Shown in pieces: positions 7,585-17,606 of a stretch of DNA of 64,000 bases. The DNA is from Dermatophagoides farinae. Its lineage: Eukaryota; Arthropoda; Arachnida; Sarcoptiformes; Pyroglyphidae. Location of the stretch: the NCBI RefSeq assembly GCF_024713945.1, contig NC_134683.1, positions 1,416,501 to 1,480,500 on the forward strand. Direction: 5' to 3'. A program made the translations under genes and the position numbers. Under the pieces are notes generated by a model. The model ran no database searches, was not told the DNA's origin, and was given only the letters and a program-made list of their open reading frames with translations. The stretch's first letter is position 1. Each line of letters opens with the position of its first letter.

Positions 7585-8962
7585 TCAAAATGAAGATTTT
7601 GTTTTTTTCACATCATCATCAACGGGTATTATGCCCAAATTTTTTGCTATACATCGACATTTGATTAGAATTTCTTCTTGAACCAGATTGAATGACATTG
7701 CCAATAATGAAAGACCAATCATCATGTACATACAACAGATTATGAATCTAGTTGCACCACCATTTATTTGTGAATAACGTGCCGATCCAGGCACCAGATC
7801 ACCAAAACCGATTGTAGTTAATGTTGTGAAACAAAAATATGCACCTTCAATTGGTGACCAATCTTCCCATAGATAAAACATAATTGTTCCTATGATAATA
7901 TAACCAATGACAACCATAATTACTAAACAAATTGGAACACGATGTTCTTTTTTCTTCGGATATATTGATTGTATTTTATCATCATCATCATCATGATTAT
8001 TTATAGTGGTGGTAGTTGTTATCATTTCATTTTTTTGATGGCCATTGATAAACATTGTTGTTTTCATTTGTTGTGGTAATTGTTGTTTTCTTTGGATTTG
8101 TGAATGACTTTTTATTGAACCATGGCGGCAATCAGAACAGCAAAAATGTTTGTACATAAATCGAAATGCATTGGCCATCAGATTGCCTAGATTGGCTAAA
8201 CATAAAAATGTAATCGGTATGCCAATGATGGCATAGAATATGGTAACTATACGTCCAAGATCGGTTTTACAAGTTAAATTTCCATAGCCTGTTCAATATG
8301 ATCAAATGTGAATCATTCATCATTATTATAATATTCAGAAACAAAATCAAAATCTTACCAATCGTAGTGATTACAGTGACACTGTAAAGAAGTGCACTAG
8401 AAAATGACCATTGTTCAACATCAATTATTGAATATCCATCTTTTTGTACGGCTTTTATGATTGTCTCTTCGAATCTCATGATACGTTCGAATGCCATTCG
8501 TTTCCAACGATCTGGATATACAATATTATTGGTGATTGTATAATTCCAAAGATCAAAAATACATTTTTTCCGTTCAAAATCCATTTTATTACGAATTTTA
8601 TGTTCATTTCGTGATTCAATATGTACAAACATTGATGCACCGATACATGTATAGCAGATGACAAAAAAACATAGACCAGTTGTTGAGAATAGATGAGCGA
8701 AAAATATTTTTAGCAAATAAATTTTTCTTTGAAAATTCTGACATATCTGTTGTTTATTTTCATGTTTCAATCGAAAATTTTCATTAATAAATGATTGTAA
8801 TGAATAATGAATTTTTTTGAATATTGATTTTGAAACATTATCATCATTATCATTATTGGATGATTTTGGCTCATCAACACAAACGTTATCACCATCATCA
8901 TCATCATCATCATCATCGATAATATCGATATAGTTTATTGTTTGATCATACTGATGTTCCAT
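7585..8962 (-). CDS. Two-pore-domain potassium channel (K2P/KCNK family)
   Basis: K2P channels are dimeric background K+ channels of the plasma membrane, each subunit having four membrane helices and two pore loops. Exons 8962-8359 and 8288-7585 join at phase 1 exactly inside the first selectivity filter, rebuilding TTIGYGN (residues 199-205); the second filter is TTIGFGD (359-365). Total 435 aa. The order is: acidic cytoplasmic N-terminus with an eight-Asp run, M1 (about 84-106), the long extracellular cap with CIFDLWNYT, pore 1, M2 (VTIFYAIIGIPITFLCLANL), a polar His/Thr/Asp-rich loop, M3 (VPICLVIMVVIGYIIIG), WSPIEGAYFCFTTL, pore 2, M4 (FIICCMYMMIGLSLLAMSF) and a short tail. The start is taken at MEHQ; upstream in-frame Mets would add a second hydrophobic stretch and are less likely. 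The subfamily (TWK/TRESK-like or other) cannot be fixed by eye. Confidence 0.93.
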
Positions 8963-9258
8963 TCTGGTATGACGATTTTTGCAAAATGAAATGAAAAATA
9001 CAAAACTGAATGAATGAATTATCATAATCAAATGAAATGGAATGGAATCACTATGTAATAATAATAATAATAATGAAATGTTTTGATCATAAAAACAACA
9101 CAACAAATGATCCATTTTGGATGAAATGTGGTAACAACAGCAACAACAACTTCAGTTTTTTTATGATCATTTTTTTTATTATAATGGATTTCAATCAATT
9201 TTTTTTTTGTATGAATAATAAAATAAATTATTATTATCGATGAATTTGAACAAAGTGT
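8963..9258. other. Intergenic region upstream of the K2P gene
   Basis: 296 bp holding the K2P 5' flank and the 3' UTR of the helical secreted gene. It has (ATT)n/(AAT)n and CAACAA tracts. A minus-strand AATAAA (plus-strand TTTATT, 9175-9180) lies about 80 nt beyond the stop of the gene at 9259. Nothing else is recognisable. Confidence 0.6.
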
Positions 9259-10029
9259 TTACGTAAACGACAAAGTGACCGAATTAATATTCCATCGTTT
9301 TTCAGCTTCCAACACGGTATTTTGAAAAGTTGACATTTCTTGAATCAATTTTTTTACCAATTCTTGAACTTCTTTTGTATTAGAATATAAATTCAATTGT
9401 TTTAAAGTATGTAAATCTTTTCGCATCATATTGGATAGATGAGAAATATGTTGTGCATCTTTTGTTGCAGTAGCATTTTCCAATGAACTAAGATAGCCAA
9501 CATCTATACCGGATTGTTGAATTAATTGGTCAATTAAATCACTCAATTGAGGCATAGTTAAATCATTGCCTTGATCATATAGTTTAATAAGAAGCTGTAT
9601 AAAAGTATTCATTTTATCCAAATCTTTGATTGTATAATCGACCAATTTTTGCATGAATGGATGATTAAGATATTGTTTATAGGATTTAGCACGTTTAATT
9701 AATATTTTAAAATAATCCAAAGATTCTGTCATTATGTTGTTATAAGCATTCAATTGGGTTTCTTTCAACCGTTGATGTGCTTGCTCATATTTGGCCACAG
9801 CTATTGTCAAGTAACTGTCAAATGTTGAATTTTTATCTTGAATGTCTTTTTTTGTTGTTTTGAAGAAAAAAAAACGATAAATAACCAATTGTGAAGTTAG
9901 TTTTATTGTGAAATTTATTTAAGAAATCAAACCTGTTGGAATAGAAAATGGTGAAACCATGTACGCTACGATGTAGCAAATAATCACCATGAAAAACATG
10001 GTCATATTAATGTTGCTTGATTTAGTCAT
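9259..10029 (-). CDS. Secreted alpha-helical protein A of the cluster (unknown family)
   Basis: No known family recognised. Two exons (10029-9933 and 9845-9259) join at phase 1 across an 87-nt intron to give 227 aa; an alternative AG a few codons downstream is possible. Exon 1 is essentially a signal peptide (hydrophobic FFMVIICYIVAYMVS, cleavage near residue 26). Exon 2 encodes about 190 residues with no cysteine and strong helical periodicity (LDYFKILIKRAKSY, IKDLDKMNTFIQLLIKLYDQ, VKKLIQEMSTFQNTVLEAEKRW). The C-terminal pattern EM..F....L...KR...N recurs in the gene at 13016-13846, and the placing of the phase-1 intron after the signal-peptide exon is the same. Likely a secreted helical-bundle protein. 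Group 5/21 mite allergens also are small secreted helical proteins, but I see no direct motif match, so that link is not claimed. Confidence 0.72.
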
Positions 10030-10530
10030 AATTACGTCACGATCAAATCGATATAAATAATAATAAAGATAACGACGATTAGATGGTTTTGATTTATGGC
10101 CACTTTTATACTTTTTTTAAAAAAAAAAATTTCCAATTCCAATCAATAGTTTCCAAAGAAAAATCAAAACATCAATTCTATTTGAAACAAAAACACTTGA
10201 TGATAAAAAGTGATCGTTATGTAAATGTATGTAGGATGTGTATATTTAAAAAAAATCGATAATTTATCGATTCAATTCTTATGATATTGCAACCATTTTG
10301 ATAATAATAATTAACACTCAAACAAACAACAGACATCTTCTATGTCAATGAGATGATGATCACATGTGTGGAAATGAAAAAAAATTTTGTATCTTAGATT
10401 GGACCAAATGGATCGATTTCAACAATATTATATCATATTTTATTGTAAACAAGATTAAGAATAATAGAAATCATTATTAATAATATAGCCTTGGATTAAA
10501 TTAAAATAATGTCAGAGAAAAAAAAATGAT
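10030..10530. other. Intergenic region between secreted gene A and the ML-helical fusion gene
   Basis: Apart from the TATA box of gene A, this 500-bp stretch contains AT-rich sequence and a minus-strand AATAAA (plus TTTATT, 10438-10443) about 90 nt past the stop of the fusion gene. No coding potential seen. Confidence 0.6.
10103..10110 (-). promoter_or_regulatory. TATA box of secreted gene A
   Basis: The minus strand reads GTATAAAAGTGGCC, a consensus TATA box 74 nt before the ATG at 10029. With the usual 25-30 nt spacing the 5' UTR would be about 45 nt. Similar elements precede the two other genes of the cluster that have a split signal-peptide exon. Confidence 0.65.
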
Positions 10531-11977
10531 TCATTTTATCGAAGAAAAAGAAAAATATCTTGTTGTTGGTGTTGACATCGTTCTGTGTGTAGAATGATCA
10601 TGATGATAATGTCGATAATAATCATCACCATAGTATTGTTTTTCCATTTCAAATAGACGATCTTCAACAAATCGAACATAGATTAACATTCGATCCAAAT
10701 TATTTTGATCAAATCGATCGGAACGATGTTGATTAATAAAATCTATGTAGAGTTTAATAACCTGAATGAATTCATTAATTTTCGTCTGATCATTTCCTTC
10801 TTCATGATGTAGTTCAAGATAGCCATACATAGAACGTAATCGTTGTAATAGTTGTTCAAGTATTGGTGTAATTTGTTTACGTATCCATTCATTGGATTGA
10901 TCATGAAAATCCCAACCAAATTCATCCAAAATATCTAGAGTTAAACGAAGTTGTTCACCATGTTTCCATAGTGTATCCGATGATCGTTCGACAAATAGAC
11001 GAAATTCACGCATTTCATCTGAACGCATTATTCGATGCCTAATCTCTATCCAAATTCCAGTCACATCTATTCGTAATTGTATTAATTGTGTTTCTACTGT
11101 TCGCAGAATATGATTTGGATTGCTCGAATTTTGATGCGGATAATGTTGTCGTAATTTTGTTTCAGTTTTATTGGCCAATTCTTCACTTTGTCGTAATACA
11201 CTTGTTAATATTTCTAACAATTCACGATATTGATCATCTGGTCTATTCGTAGTTCGATTATCCGGACGAGCAGTTGTTGTATAACGATTATCTATTATTT
11301 CAAATAGAAAAAAAAATCATCTATTGAATGGTAGAAATGGTAGATCACTTACCATAATATCGCAAACGAATCCGAGAACAGGCCAATAATTGTGGATTTT
11401 GTCTTGAATCAGCATTGGAAAAATATTTATCTTCAAGAGTCAATTGATAGTTTAACTAAATAAAACAATTAGCCATTTATTTGATCAATTACAATGAATA
11501 ATTTATAATTACCGCAAATTGATTCATATAATTGATTGATTTATTAATTCTATATATATGATTAGCTTCAATAGGACATTTTTCGATATTATATTTACTT
11601 GGATTCTGGCATAGATCACCAACAATATTGGTAATATTTTTCGTACCGGATTGTAGAAATGTTTCATTATTGAAAAATTTACTTGAAGTGGTTGCCGATG
11701 CAAATGTAAGATAATAAGTAATAGAATTTTTATCCACTATAACACATTCATCATTGCTGGATAGTTGTTCATCACAGCCATCAACGTTTACTGAATAAAC
11801 ATTGTGAAGTCCTAGATAAATTTAAAATTTTTATCAACATTTCAATCATCAATATATTAATTTATTAAGCTTACCACAATCTTCATAATTCAAATTTATT
11901 CCCATTACCGAATGATAATTGAATATGATCAAAATGGTGACCAGAATAATGGTAAAATAAAACGTTCGAAATGCCAT
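10531..11977 (-). CDS. ML-domain (Der p 2 / NPC2-like) protein fused to a C-terminal helical domain
   Basis: Four exons, 11977-11875, 11811-11513, 11455-11353 and 11291-10531, join in phase (1, 0, 1) to 421 aa. A signal peptide (residues 1-26) is followed by an ML lipid-recognition domain (about 30-168) with all six group-2 cysteines: DC34, GC47, EC57, C102, KCP113 and LLAC160. In Der p 2 these form three disulfides around a lipid-binding beta-sandwich. The C47-C57 and C102-C113 loops are longer than in Der p 2. N-glycosylation motifs sit at N83 and N93. A Thr/Pro/Asn/Asp-rich linker (about 170-190) leads to about 215 residues of helical sequence (e.g. LTSVLRQSEELANK, IRKQITPILEQLLQRLR) with the weak look of neighbouring genes A and C. 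If intron 3 is retained, a stop falls two codons later, giving an ML-only protein of 170 aa. Lipid or sterol binding is inferred from the family. Confidence 0.82.
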
Positions 11978-12288: not shown

Positions 12289-12876
12289 CTATGAAATATT
12301 TGGTTCTTGCTTTTCATTCTGGCCTTGGCCATTATTATCGTTTGAAGTGTCATCAAAATGACGAAATTGATCGATCAATGTGAACAAGAGAAGAGATTGT
12401 TCTTTGCTAAATTTTCCCGGAAACATTAATTCAATAAATGATACATCTTTGGGCATTTCATTCAGAACCATAACGATTTCGGTGGGTGTTAACGAAAAAT
12501 TCTGCTTCAATTCATTGGCTAAACATTTGGATCGTTCGTGATTTAAATTTTTGATTGCATCAGAAGAATTCAGTTTAATGTGTTTGTCAACATCTTTAAG
12601 GGAATTTCGAAATTGTCCAAATGTCGATTCTTTGGCAATGTTGTGCAATATTCGATCACAATCCGTTGATGATAGGATTTTATCGATTTTTGATGATTGT
12701 TCTTGTAAAATTTGTAAGGCACGATAATTAGGTATCAAAGAAATATGTTTAAAATTCGATGATGAACCGGAATCTAATTGATTATCCATGAAATGAATGT
12801 GATGAAAAATATAATCTAAAAAAAAGAACTGAAATAATGAAAACAACAACAACGACGACAAACAATTAGCAATCAT
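12289..12876 (-). CDS. Secreted or membrane-anchored helical protein B (unknown)
   Basis: No family recognised. The single exon encodes 195 aa from MIANCL; an in-frame Met 16 codons upstream (12924) is possible but would bury the hydrophobic leader. Residues 1-25 are a long hydrophobic segment (LSSLLLFSLFQFFFLDYIF), either a signal peptide or an N-terminal anchor. The rest is hydrophilic and helix-rich with two cysteines (CDRILHN, SKCLANEL), a conserved-looking core LTPTEIVMVLNEMP and an Asn/Asp/Gln-rich tail ending in PNIS. It lies on the same strand between genes of the helical cluster but has no clear resemblance to them, no upstream phase-1 intron and no evident TATA box. A minus-strand AATAAA (plus TTTATT, 12119-12124) lies about 165 nt after the stop. 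Confidence 0.62.
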   Translation of the reverse strand: MIANCLSSLLLFSLFQFFFLDYIFHHIHFMDNQLDSGSSSNFKHISLIPNYRALQILQEQSSKIDKILSSTDCDRILHNIAKESTFGQFRNSLKDVDKHIKLNSSDAIKNLNHERSKCLANELKQNFSLTPTEIVMVLNEMPKDVSFIELMFPGKFSKEQSLLLFTLIDQFRHFDDTSNDNNGQGQNEKQEPNIS

Positions 12877-13015: not shown

Positions 13016-13846
13016 CTAATAATTATAATTAATAACATTAGCATAATTAACACTGAAACGTTTTTGAGAATCCAACATGAAATGTTCAAATTTGGCCATT
13101 TCAGTAAAAACTATTTTGATTTGATTATAAACATCTTGTGGGTTATCAGTTATTCTTTTTGATTGCAAATCTTGTAGACGATCACGTAAAAATTTGGATC
13201 TATCATAAATCTGATCAGATTCAGGTTTTCGATTTTCACGCAGTAAAAAAGTTGCTTCGATCTGGGCTACATCAACAATTTCATCGATTACATCACTTAA
13301 TCCAGAAATGCCTACATAATAGCTATCATCATCGTCTTCATCACCACCGATTAGATCACAAAGGAATGGAAAAAATTTCATCATTGATTCCATTTCATCC
13401 ATACTGAATTGAGCTGATTGTTGCAAGAACGGATTGTCCACATGTTCGGCTAAAGATTTCAATCGTTTCGTTAATGATTTTAAATATGCTCGTTCATCCG
13501 ATAAGATCATTCTCCAGAATGTTTGTTTATTATTTTCACTTTCTGGTGCCGTTTCAGCATGATGGCCACCATTACATGATGAATCGGTCAACATTTTTTC
13601 CGATCGTTCCAATACATTTTTAATTGATTCTATATTTTCCAATTATTATTGGCCAAGCATTAATTAAATTAAAAGGTAACGTACAAAATAATAATACTTG
13701 CCAGCTAACGGTGTGGCTGGTTGATTGGCCATTCGGACCCGTCGTTTGTACGAAATGATTGATGCTGATGAACTGATGATAATCATTGAATGAACAATAG
13801 AAATGATGACCAAAATGGTCATAATATTAGATAAACGTAGAGTCAT
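13016..13846 (-). CDS. Secreted alpha-helical protein C of the cluster (unknown family)
   Basis: No known family recognised. Two exons (13846-13702 and 13629-13016) join at phase 1 through a GC-AG intron (donor G|GCAAGT, acceptor ATATAG) of 72 nt, giving 252 aa; an in-frame Met at 13870 (MKHV) would add eight residues. The only GT near the donor leaves a phase that does not fit, and no other AG is available, so the GC donor is favoured. Exon 1 encodes a signal peptide (TILVIISIVHSMIIISSSAS) and a short basic stretch. Exon 2 encodes about 200 helical residues with two cysteines, an acidic loop (GGDEDDDDSYY) and a C-terminus FTEMAKFEHFMLDSQKRFSVNY that parallels gene A; its start (NVLERSEKML) parallels SVLRQSEELAN of the fusion gene. 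ATTAAA on the minus strand (plus 12976-12981) may be its poly(A) signal. Confidence 0.72.
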
Positions 13847-13925
13847 TATTGAAATGAGTACGTGTTTCATGCGAAATGATTCCAATACAATCACAAGCAA
13901 TTAGAGCTGTTAGATTTAAGTCCAA

Positions 13926-16543: not shown

Positions 16544-17606
16544 TTATAGATTAGAAACATGTTTATAAAGCATTAAAATTAACGGTATATTCAAAAGAAT
16601 CATTTCAATGAATTTATATTTTGTTATGTAAAAAATATGGCCACAAGTGAAACCAAGTTTATTGTTAGTCATTGTTTGTATGAAAAAATTCCATTTCATT
16701 GATTGTCGTCCATGTATTTGTTGAATTTTATGGCTAAACCAATTAATGTGATTTGTTTTCACGAATTTCTGCGACCATTGTGAACATGCTAACCATTTAA
16801 ATATGATTTGAATACATTTTGTATTATATGTTGGAAGTGATGCTATTTGATAATACATAAGATTTATGAATAGAATGGTAGATATCATACAAAATATTCC
16901 TAATGAATTGATCATAGCCATTTTGACTTGTTTACTATAGAATACACATGCAATCATGGCCGTTGATTTGCTTATGATTTCGACGGCCAGTAAAGAAAAT
17001 TTTGTCGATTCATTTAATTTAGCAATATTTGCATATAGAATAATGTATTCACGTTGAAATAGATTCCAGAATATTTTTTTCATAAAATATGGTGATTTAT
17101 ATCGCCGTTTAATGGATAATGACAAGAAAGTGAATAATTCTTTGATTTTTTCTCGATAAAATATCAAACAGAATAGAAAAAAAGATTCCAAACTGAAAAA
17201 TTGAAATGTAATGTAAATCATGTCCATTCCATATAAAAATGAATAAGGAAAACTGGACATAAATTGAACGAAATTAATTCCAACGAGATCAAAATCAGAA
17301 TGCTAATACTTAACATCAATAAAACAATTCTTTGATTATGATAAAGAATATAATTTGAATGATCAATACAAATATATAGCTGAAAGAGTAAAATTCATTC
17401 GAAATGATCGTATAAATATGAAATGAAAATTCAATACAAATGTATTTCGTTTGATTATTCAATAATATGTCATTTTTGATGTGATTTTTTCGAATTTCAA
17501 TGATGACATTCGTATCAAATTTGTATTGTGCAGCATATATTAAACGACTTTTTTTTATAGGAAAATTATCATTACAGTAGAAAACTTTCAGAAAAATATT
17601 TTTCAT
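16544..17606 (-). CDS. Divergent multi-pass membrane protein, gustatory-receptor-like; 5' part uncertain
   Basis: The 3' exon (17302-16544, 252 aa) has several hydrophobic helices: FMSSFPYSFLYGMDMIYITF, SFFLFCLIFYREKI, AMINSLGIFCMISTILFINLMYY and a C-terminal FIEMILLNIPLILMLYKHV. The last two, with KLGFTCGHIFYITKYKF before the final helix, recall the C-terminal half of arthropod gustatory receptors, where TM7 is the best-kept part. A second open stretch upstream (17606-17316) starts MKNIFLKVF and ends in hydrophobic residues. One way to join them is exon 17606-17370, an intron of 67 nt with a weak GTATTG donor, then 17302 (phase 0), for 331 aa. But this cuts out a membrane-like segment, and a third frame across 17340-17230 is also hydrophobic, so a frameshifted pseudogene is equally possible. 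The family call is tentative: the motif is loose. Confidence 0.5.

Follow-up and report, generated by a model that had tools for sequence, protein, structure and literature searches.

The window analysed here, a 64,000-nucleotide stretch of the Dermatophagoides farinae genome (contig NC_134683.1, positions 1,416,501 to 1,480,500 of the forward strand), holds a minus-strand gene at 11977-10531 whose four exons, joined in phase, give an open frame of 421 codons closed by a stop codon and link an ML-type domain to a predicted helical module (Table 1). Two genes on the same strand, here called A and C, flank this fusion gene, and two further genes of their kind, D and E, lie outside the window. 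Between C and the ML gene there is an intronless minus-strand frame (12289-12789) with a weak match to the Pfam family Rpb4 (18.2 bits against a cut-off of 25.6), which we take to resemble the Pol III subunit RPC9/CRCP. Also on the minus strand are an ion-channel gene (7585-8980) that matches Ion_trans_2 in two stretches and has the layout of a two-pore potassium channel, and a 252-aa hydrophobic frame (16544-17302) with no Pfam match that looks by eye like a chemoreceptor-type membrane protein.

Table 1. Features of the ML-helical gene and of the related helical genes. Positions are those of the window unless a contig is named.
Feature	Position	Strand	Description
Exon 1	11875..11977	-	Putative signal peptide, then the first ML strand with Cys34; phase-1 end
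Intron 1	11812..11874	-	63 nt, GTAAGC...TAG, phase 1
Exon 2	11513..11811	-	Bulk of the ML domain: Cys47, 57, 102, 113
Intron 2	11456..11512	-	57 nt, GT-AG, phase 0
Exon 3	11353..11455	-	Final ML strands, Cys160; phase-1 end 8 residues past Cys160
Intron 3	11292..11352	-	61 nt, GTAAGT...TAG, phase 1
Exon 4, including stop codon	10531..11291	-	Thr/Pro-rich linker, predicted helices, His/Tyr/Thr-rich tail
AATAAA	10439..10444	-	Possible poly(A) signal for the fusion gene, 87 nt beyond the stop
Neighbour A	9262..10029	-	Putative signal-peptide exon, phase-1 intron (unusual donor GTTTGA, two possible acceptors), one terminal helical exon
Neighbour C	13019..13870	-	Laid out as A: putative signal-peptide exon, phase-1 intron with the weak donor GTTACC, helical part in one terminal exon
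Gene D	C7:2421279-2421899 (L012 1492-2166)		Third member of the A/C family
Gene E	C4:2571384-2571959 (L024 1303-2079)		Secreted-looking helical protein

The coding nature of exon 4 was assessed from its length and its codon usage. It runs for 253 codons without a stop. In non-coding DNA close by, 6.8% of codons are stops, so that an open run of this length has a chance probability of about 2e-8. Of the six frames, only that of exon 4 gets a positive codon score, the other five being negative. The codon score is not infallible, since exon 1 and the RPC9-like gene also come out slightly below zero. Downstream of the stop codon, the stretch 10530-10330 contains a single AATAAA, at 10444. In the fused protein, strongly hydrophobic 19-residue windows begin at the N-terminus, where a signal peptide was called by hydropathy only, and no further hydrophobic segment was found beyond it in windows of this length (maximum beyond residue 40, 0.73). 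All of its cysteines (residues 34, 47, 57, 102, 113 and 160) fall inside the ML part, exon 4 being Cys-free, and there are six N-glycosylation motifs, of which N180 lies in the linker. With four exons in phase, GT-AG introns and a hydrophobic N-terminus, these results uphold the sequence-only reading of the locus as one spliced, secreted 421-aa protein. The locus probably holds one gene, coding for a secreted protein of two modules; its exon structure and open frame were read directly from the DNA, and we infer that transcripts are spliced across all four exons.

Exon 4 might instead be part of a separate gene with its own leader, as A and C are themselves separate genes, each with its own signal exon. 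The open frame of exon 4 starts at 11316 and has its first Met at residue 88 of 253, so that exon 4 would need a leader to be a gene of its own; the gap between exons 3 and 4 is just 61 nt, and the ML gene's own exon 1 is the sole signal exon that fits exon 4 in frame. We rejected the separate-gene reading on account of the open frame that lacks a start, and regard it as highly improbable.

ML proteins hold a hydrophobic ligand in a beta-sandwich pocket, and the family includes the major allergens of dust mites as well as NPC2, a carrier of cholesterol. The ML part of the fused protein scores 19.7 bits with the Pfam profile PF02221, under the cut-off of 22.7, so that Pfam alone would not name the domain. 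A PF02221 search of the genome (62,435,336 bases, 22 contigs) returned seven other ML exons above the cut-off, the fusion locus being absent from them; one exon in the genome matches Der f 2 at 107 of 108 residues. Profile comparison by hhalign of residues 23-128 with five other D. farinae ML proteins gave an E-value of 3.8e-7. In an alignment of the ML part and its seven D. farinae paralogues, C34, C57, C102, C113 and C160 were present in each of the 8 sequences and Cys47 in 7 of them, and identity to each of the seven was 18-23%; the fusion gene is therefore an old, diverged member of the ML family.

Intron positions also bear on the family assignment. Intron 1, in phase 1, lies right behind the codon of the first ML cysteine, as it does in three of the seven other genes (L001, L002, which is Der f 2, and L006), and its position matches that of the Der f 2 intron in an excerpt of the published description (PMC6079044). 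Intron 2, in phase 0, lies within two alignment columns of a phase-0 intron of two of the seven (L003 and L005). The ML assignment thus rests on the six cysteines, the hhalign match and the positions of introns 1 and 2, beyond the sub-threshold Pfam match; the aligned cysteines support the earlier claim of a complete six-cysteine ML domain.

Eight ML genes are given for D. pteronyssinus in the part of the literature covered (PMC12105342). Seven ML genes and the fusion make eight in D. farinae, a comparison of numbers only in which genes are not paired one-to-one, and the seven others are a lower bound (at least seven) because the genome search scores best candidates only. Binding of cholesterol has been reported for Der p 2 (PMC6367342, PMC12105342), and expression of the D. 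pteronyssinus ML genes is described as ranging from high basal expression in the gut to a 50-fold male bias (PMC12105342), which makes both gut and reproductive tissue possible sites for the fusion gene.

Where the fusion gene departs from its family is at the end of the ML domain. All seven of the other ML genes found stop 8-12 residues past the cysteine equivalent to Cys160, the fusion gene continues, and neither intron 3 nor exon 4 has a counterpart in the seven. The sequence-only reading was thus right to call the layout unusual for proteins that are normally single-domain; a single-domain layout is a habit of the ML family and not a criterion that defines the domain. One paper states that the ML domain is present as one copy and that in stick-insect ML proteins it comes straight behind the signal peptide (PMC9316843). 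If intron 3 is read through, a TGA stop is met 10 residues past Cys160, within the 8-12 range, the place expected for an ML stop codon being bases 5-7 of the intron, as if the old ML stop sat just inside intron 3. This stop may be the ancestral ML stop, with the reservation that an intron entered in phase 1 through a GTAAGT donor is fairly likely to show a stop at that spot by chance.

The same read-through is what an ordinary single-domain ML protein would show, if intron 3 were retained or the transcript ended within it and exon 4 were seldom or never joined: translation into the intron ends after 10 residues, in the range of the seven other ML genes. Against this, the donor of intron 3, GTAAGT, is the commonest donor among the introns listed, and neither AATAAA nor ATTAAA was found when intron 3 was scanned for poly(A) signals. 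An exclusively single-domain product would also leave unexplained the long open coding frame of exon 4, which lacks a start of its own. We consider it improbable, and prefer the reading in which exon 4 is spliced to the ML exons.

The relatives of A and C were collected by sequence search. A search with A found C at an E-value of 1.9e-12 and D at 4.0e-27, a search with D found E at 1.4e-4, and hhalign aligned E with A, C and D at 4.9e-7. Gene D is laid out like A and C, its helical part lying in one terminal exon that a phase-1 intron separates from a putative signal-peptide exon; it adjoins a reading frame that is globin-like by eye. Gene E carries a long Pro/Thr-rich stalk (PTTKPPPH repeat units) ahead of its helical part and fits the same plan of signal exon, phase-1 intron and terminal exon, its first intron being placeable in several ways. 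The unusual donors of A and C make those two gene models less sure. By these matches A, C, D and E are one helical family, in which A and C are clearly related, and as predicted from their frames its members stand alone as secreted proteins that lack an ML domain.

Whether the helical part of exon 4 belongs to this family was assessed by comparing alignment scores with those of shuffled sequences (full, hydrophobic-pattern, 20-residue-window and class-preserving shuffles, in this order throughout the pairwise comparisons). The score against E was 81, equalled in 0, 0, 0 and 3 of 1000 shuffles; that against D was 60 (6, 22, 3 and 18 per 1000), that against A was 55 (12, 24, 13 and 91 per 1000) and that against C was 40 (184, 343, 189 and 262 per 1000). 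By BLASTP, exon 4 and E align over 201 columns at 22% identity with a single-comparison E-value of 0.031, residues 4-181 of E being matched in order to residues 26-217 of exon 4 over the full domain. With a profile of A, D and E, hhalign scored exon 4 at 24.5 over 168 columns (E 0.0055), and 0 of 300 full, 0 of 300 pattern and 3 of 300 class-preserving shuffles did as well; with C in the profile, the score was 20.9 over 59 columns, and 5, 10 and 18 of 300 shuffles did as well. HMMER gave 11.9-12.3 bits for exon 4 with profiles of A, D and E or of D and E, 7.5-9.0 bits with A and E (reversed sequences reaching up to 6.2), and 3.8-4.2 bits with C in the profile, lower than reversed exon 4. In larger shuffle sets, 156 of 5000 shuffles did as well with a profile that includes C, and 53 of 2000 with a profile of A, C and D, exon 4 scoring under its own reversed sequence in both. 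Semi-global alignment of exon 4 to the A, C, D profile was no better than that of shuffles, and genome searches with either exon 4 or its second half as query returned the self-match alone. Among the sequences compared, E thus appears to stand closest to exon 4, A and D being weakly alike and C not.

These scores leave room for a second reading of the fused protein, in which it is still one ML and helical protein and the helical domain is a different amphipathic helical sequence, added at the 3' end and unrelated to A and C. The weak direct similarity to A and D, its absence for C, and a profile including C that does no better with exon 4 than with the reversed sequence all suit such an origin, and amphipathic helices of like composition score moderately by chance: reversed exon 4 scored 66 against C, above the true exon 4 against A (55) or D (60). 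The match to E is harder to explain in this way, being full-length, in order and better than all 3000 of the full, pattern and window shuffles. Exon 4 is moreover a terminal exon entered in phase 1, as are the helical exons of A, C and D, it lies on the same strand with A and C on its flanks, and a Thr/Pro-rich stretch precedes the helical part both here and in E. We hold an unrelated domain to be the less likely case, though one of appreciable weight. Descent of the exon 4 helical module from the A/C/D/E family is likely, chiefly in that several lines, each of them weak alone, point the same way: sequence, the phase and the terminal position of the exon, the stalk and the location. The earlier claim that the C-terminal domain resembles A and C is accordingly to be narrowed: the likeness to A is weak (12 of 1000 full and 91 of 1000 class-preserving shuffles as good), and that to C fails (184 of 1000 full shuffles as good). 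Its companion claim, that a local domain was captured, agrees with the layout, the predicted helices and the Thr/Pro stalk, but the link runs through D and mainly E.

The fold of exon 4 was modelled from sequence. Its Thr/Pro-rich linker spans approximately 11291-11233, and about 215 residues of helical sequence follow. AlphaFold (single sequence) predicted six long helices at approximately residues 186-399 with a low mean pLDDT of 45.9, and for neighbour A (modelled with C) six long helices with a pLDDT of 70.0; helix order matches between the two models, and at these confidences both place a DQ-containing loop between helices 3 and 4. Foldseek searches with the exon 4 and A models returned 813 and 444 matches at E ≤ 10, respectively, and 0 at E ≤ 0.001. 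The best hits of sequence searches against the PDB (E 0.09 for the 421-aa protein, 0.0079 for the A/C/D profile and 0.21 for E) were all to unrelated proteins. Searches with exon 4 gave 1 patterned stretch in viral contigs and 21 in genome contigs, and the A/C/D alignment gave 124 in viral contigs, with 0 confirmed in each case; few sequences in these collections are eukaryotic, so that absence from them says little. No match suggested a viral or bacterial origin.

On balance we favour an origin in which splicing past the stop codon of a diverged ML gene fused it to a helical gene next door, giving a secreted two-module product. The ML gene (of the MD-2/NPC2/Der f 2 type) would have acquired a splice donor beside its stop codon; splicing would then take out the old stop and bring the ML exons, in phase 1, up to a downstream terminal exon, which probably came from a neighbouring copy of a mite helical-protein gene that had lost its signal-peptide exon. 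In the product, the ML pocket would hold a hydrophobic ligand, and the Thr/Pro-linked helical module could tether it to a surface or a partner, or else serve as a second, amphipathic lipid-contacting part; for a predicted amphipathic, Cys-free module on a glycosylatable Thr/Pro linker, oligomerisation would be another likely use. That the helical module tethers or handles lipid is a tentative proposal, against which we would lean at present.

The exon phases would also permit a modular splice unit. Exons 2 and 3 together form a 402-nt phase 1-1 cassette: when both are skipped, exon 1 joins exon 4 in frame to give 287 aa, and when either is skipped alone, the frame is broken. One gene could then give three secreted proteins, with skipping of exons 2 and 3 yielding a 287-aa protein of signal peptide and helical part that resembles A and C, retention of intron 3 yielding an ordinary ML protein, and full splicing yielding the fusion. 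Regulated splicing would decide whether lipid carrier and helical partner are made apart or tethered, for example in mite reproduction or digestion. We regard this elaboration as a long shot. If the favoured origin is right, the ML-helical fusion shows how a single-domain carrier can gain a second function and is a clean example of the fusion of neighbouring genes via splicing past a stop codon. It also points to an unannotated-looking family of mite helical proteins, candidates for tests of expression, lipid binding and IgE binding.

We found no published fusion of an ML domain to a helical domain in the literature searched, and the proposal that this architecture is new is consistent with that literature. 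Among known mite proteins, those of allergen groups 5 and 21 (the Blo t 5 family, PF11642) are likewise secreted, helical and mite-specific, and are described in an excerpt of PMC12105342 as three-helix bundles of lipophilic character. PF11642 matched none of exon 4, A, C, D and E, and a group 5/21 identity was rejected; Foldseek listed Blo t 5 for the exon 4 model only at an E-value of 0.95 and a TM-score of 0.13. A PF11642 search of the genome gave three genes above the cut-off, all of them elsewhere than exon 4, A, C, D and E. Two Blo t 5-family genes of the group 5/21 type lie close together on opposite strands (L017/L018, C4:4170433-4171937), and a diverged third is at C1:4915481.

With the ML family (mite allergens of groups 2, 22 and 35, NPC2 and MD-2), the fused protein shares six cysteines in order, an hhalign profile match (the Pfam score staying under its cut-off), predicted secretion and introns at family positions; it differs in its added linker and helical part of about 215 residues and in a longer loop ahead of the last cysteine. 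The A/C/D/E proteins differ from it in having no ML domain, and their sequence link to exon 4 is marginal; they share with it the phase-1 entry to one terminal exon and the Thr/Pro stretch (in E), and six long helices are predicted at low to moderate confidence both in exon 4 and in A (modelled with C).
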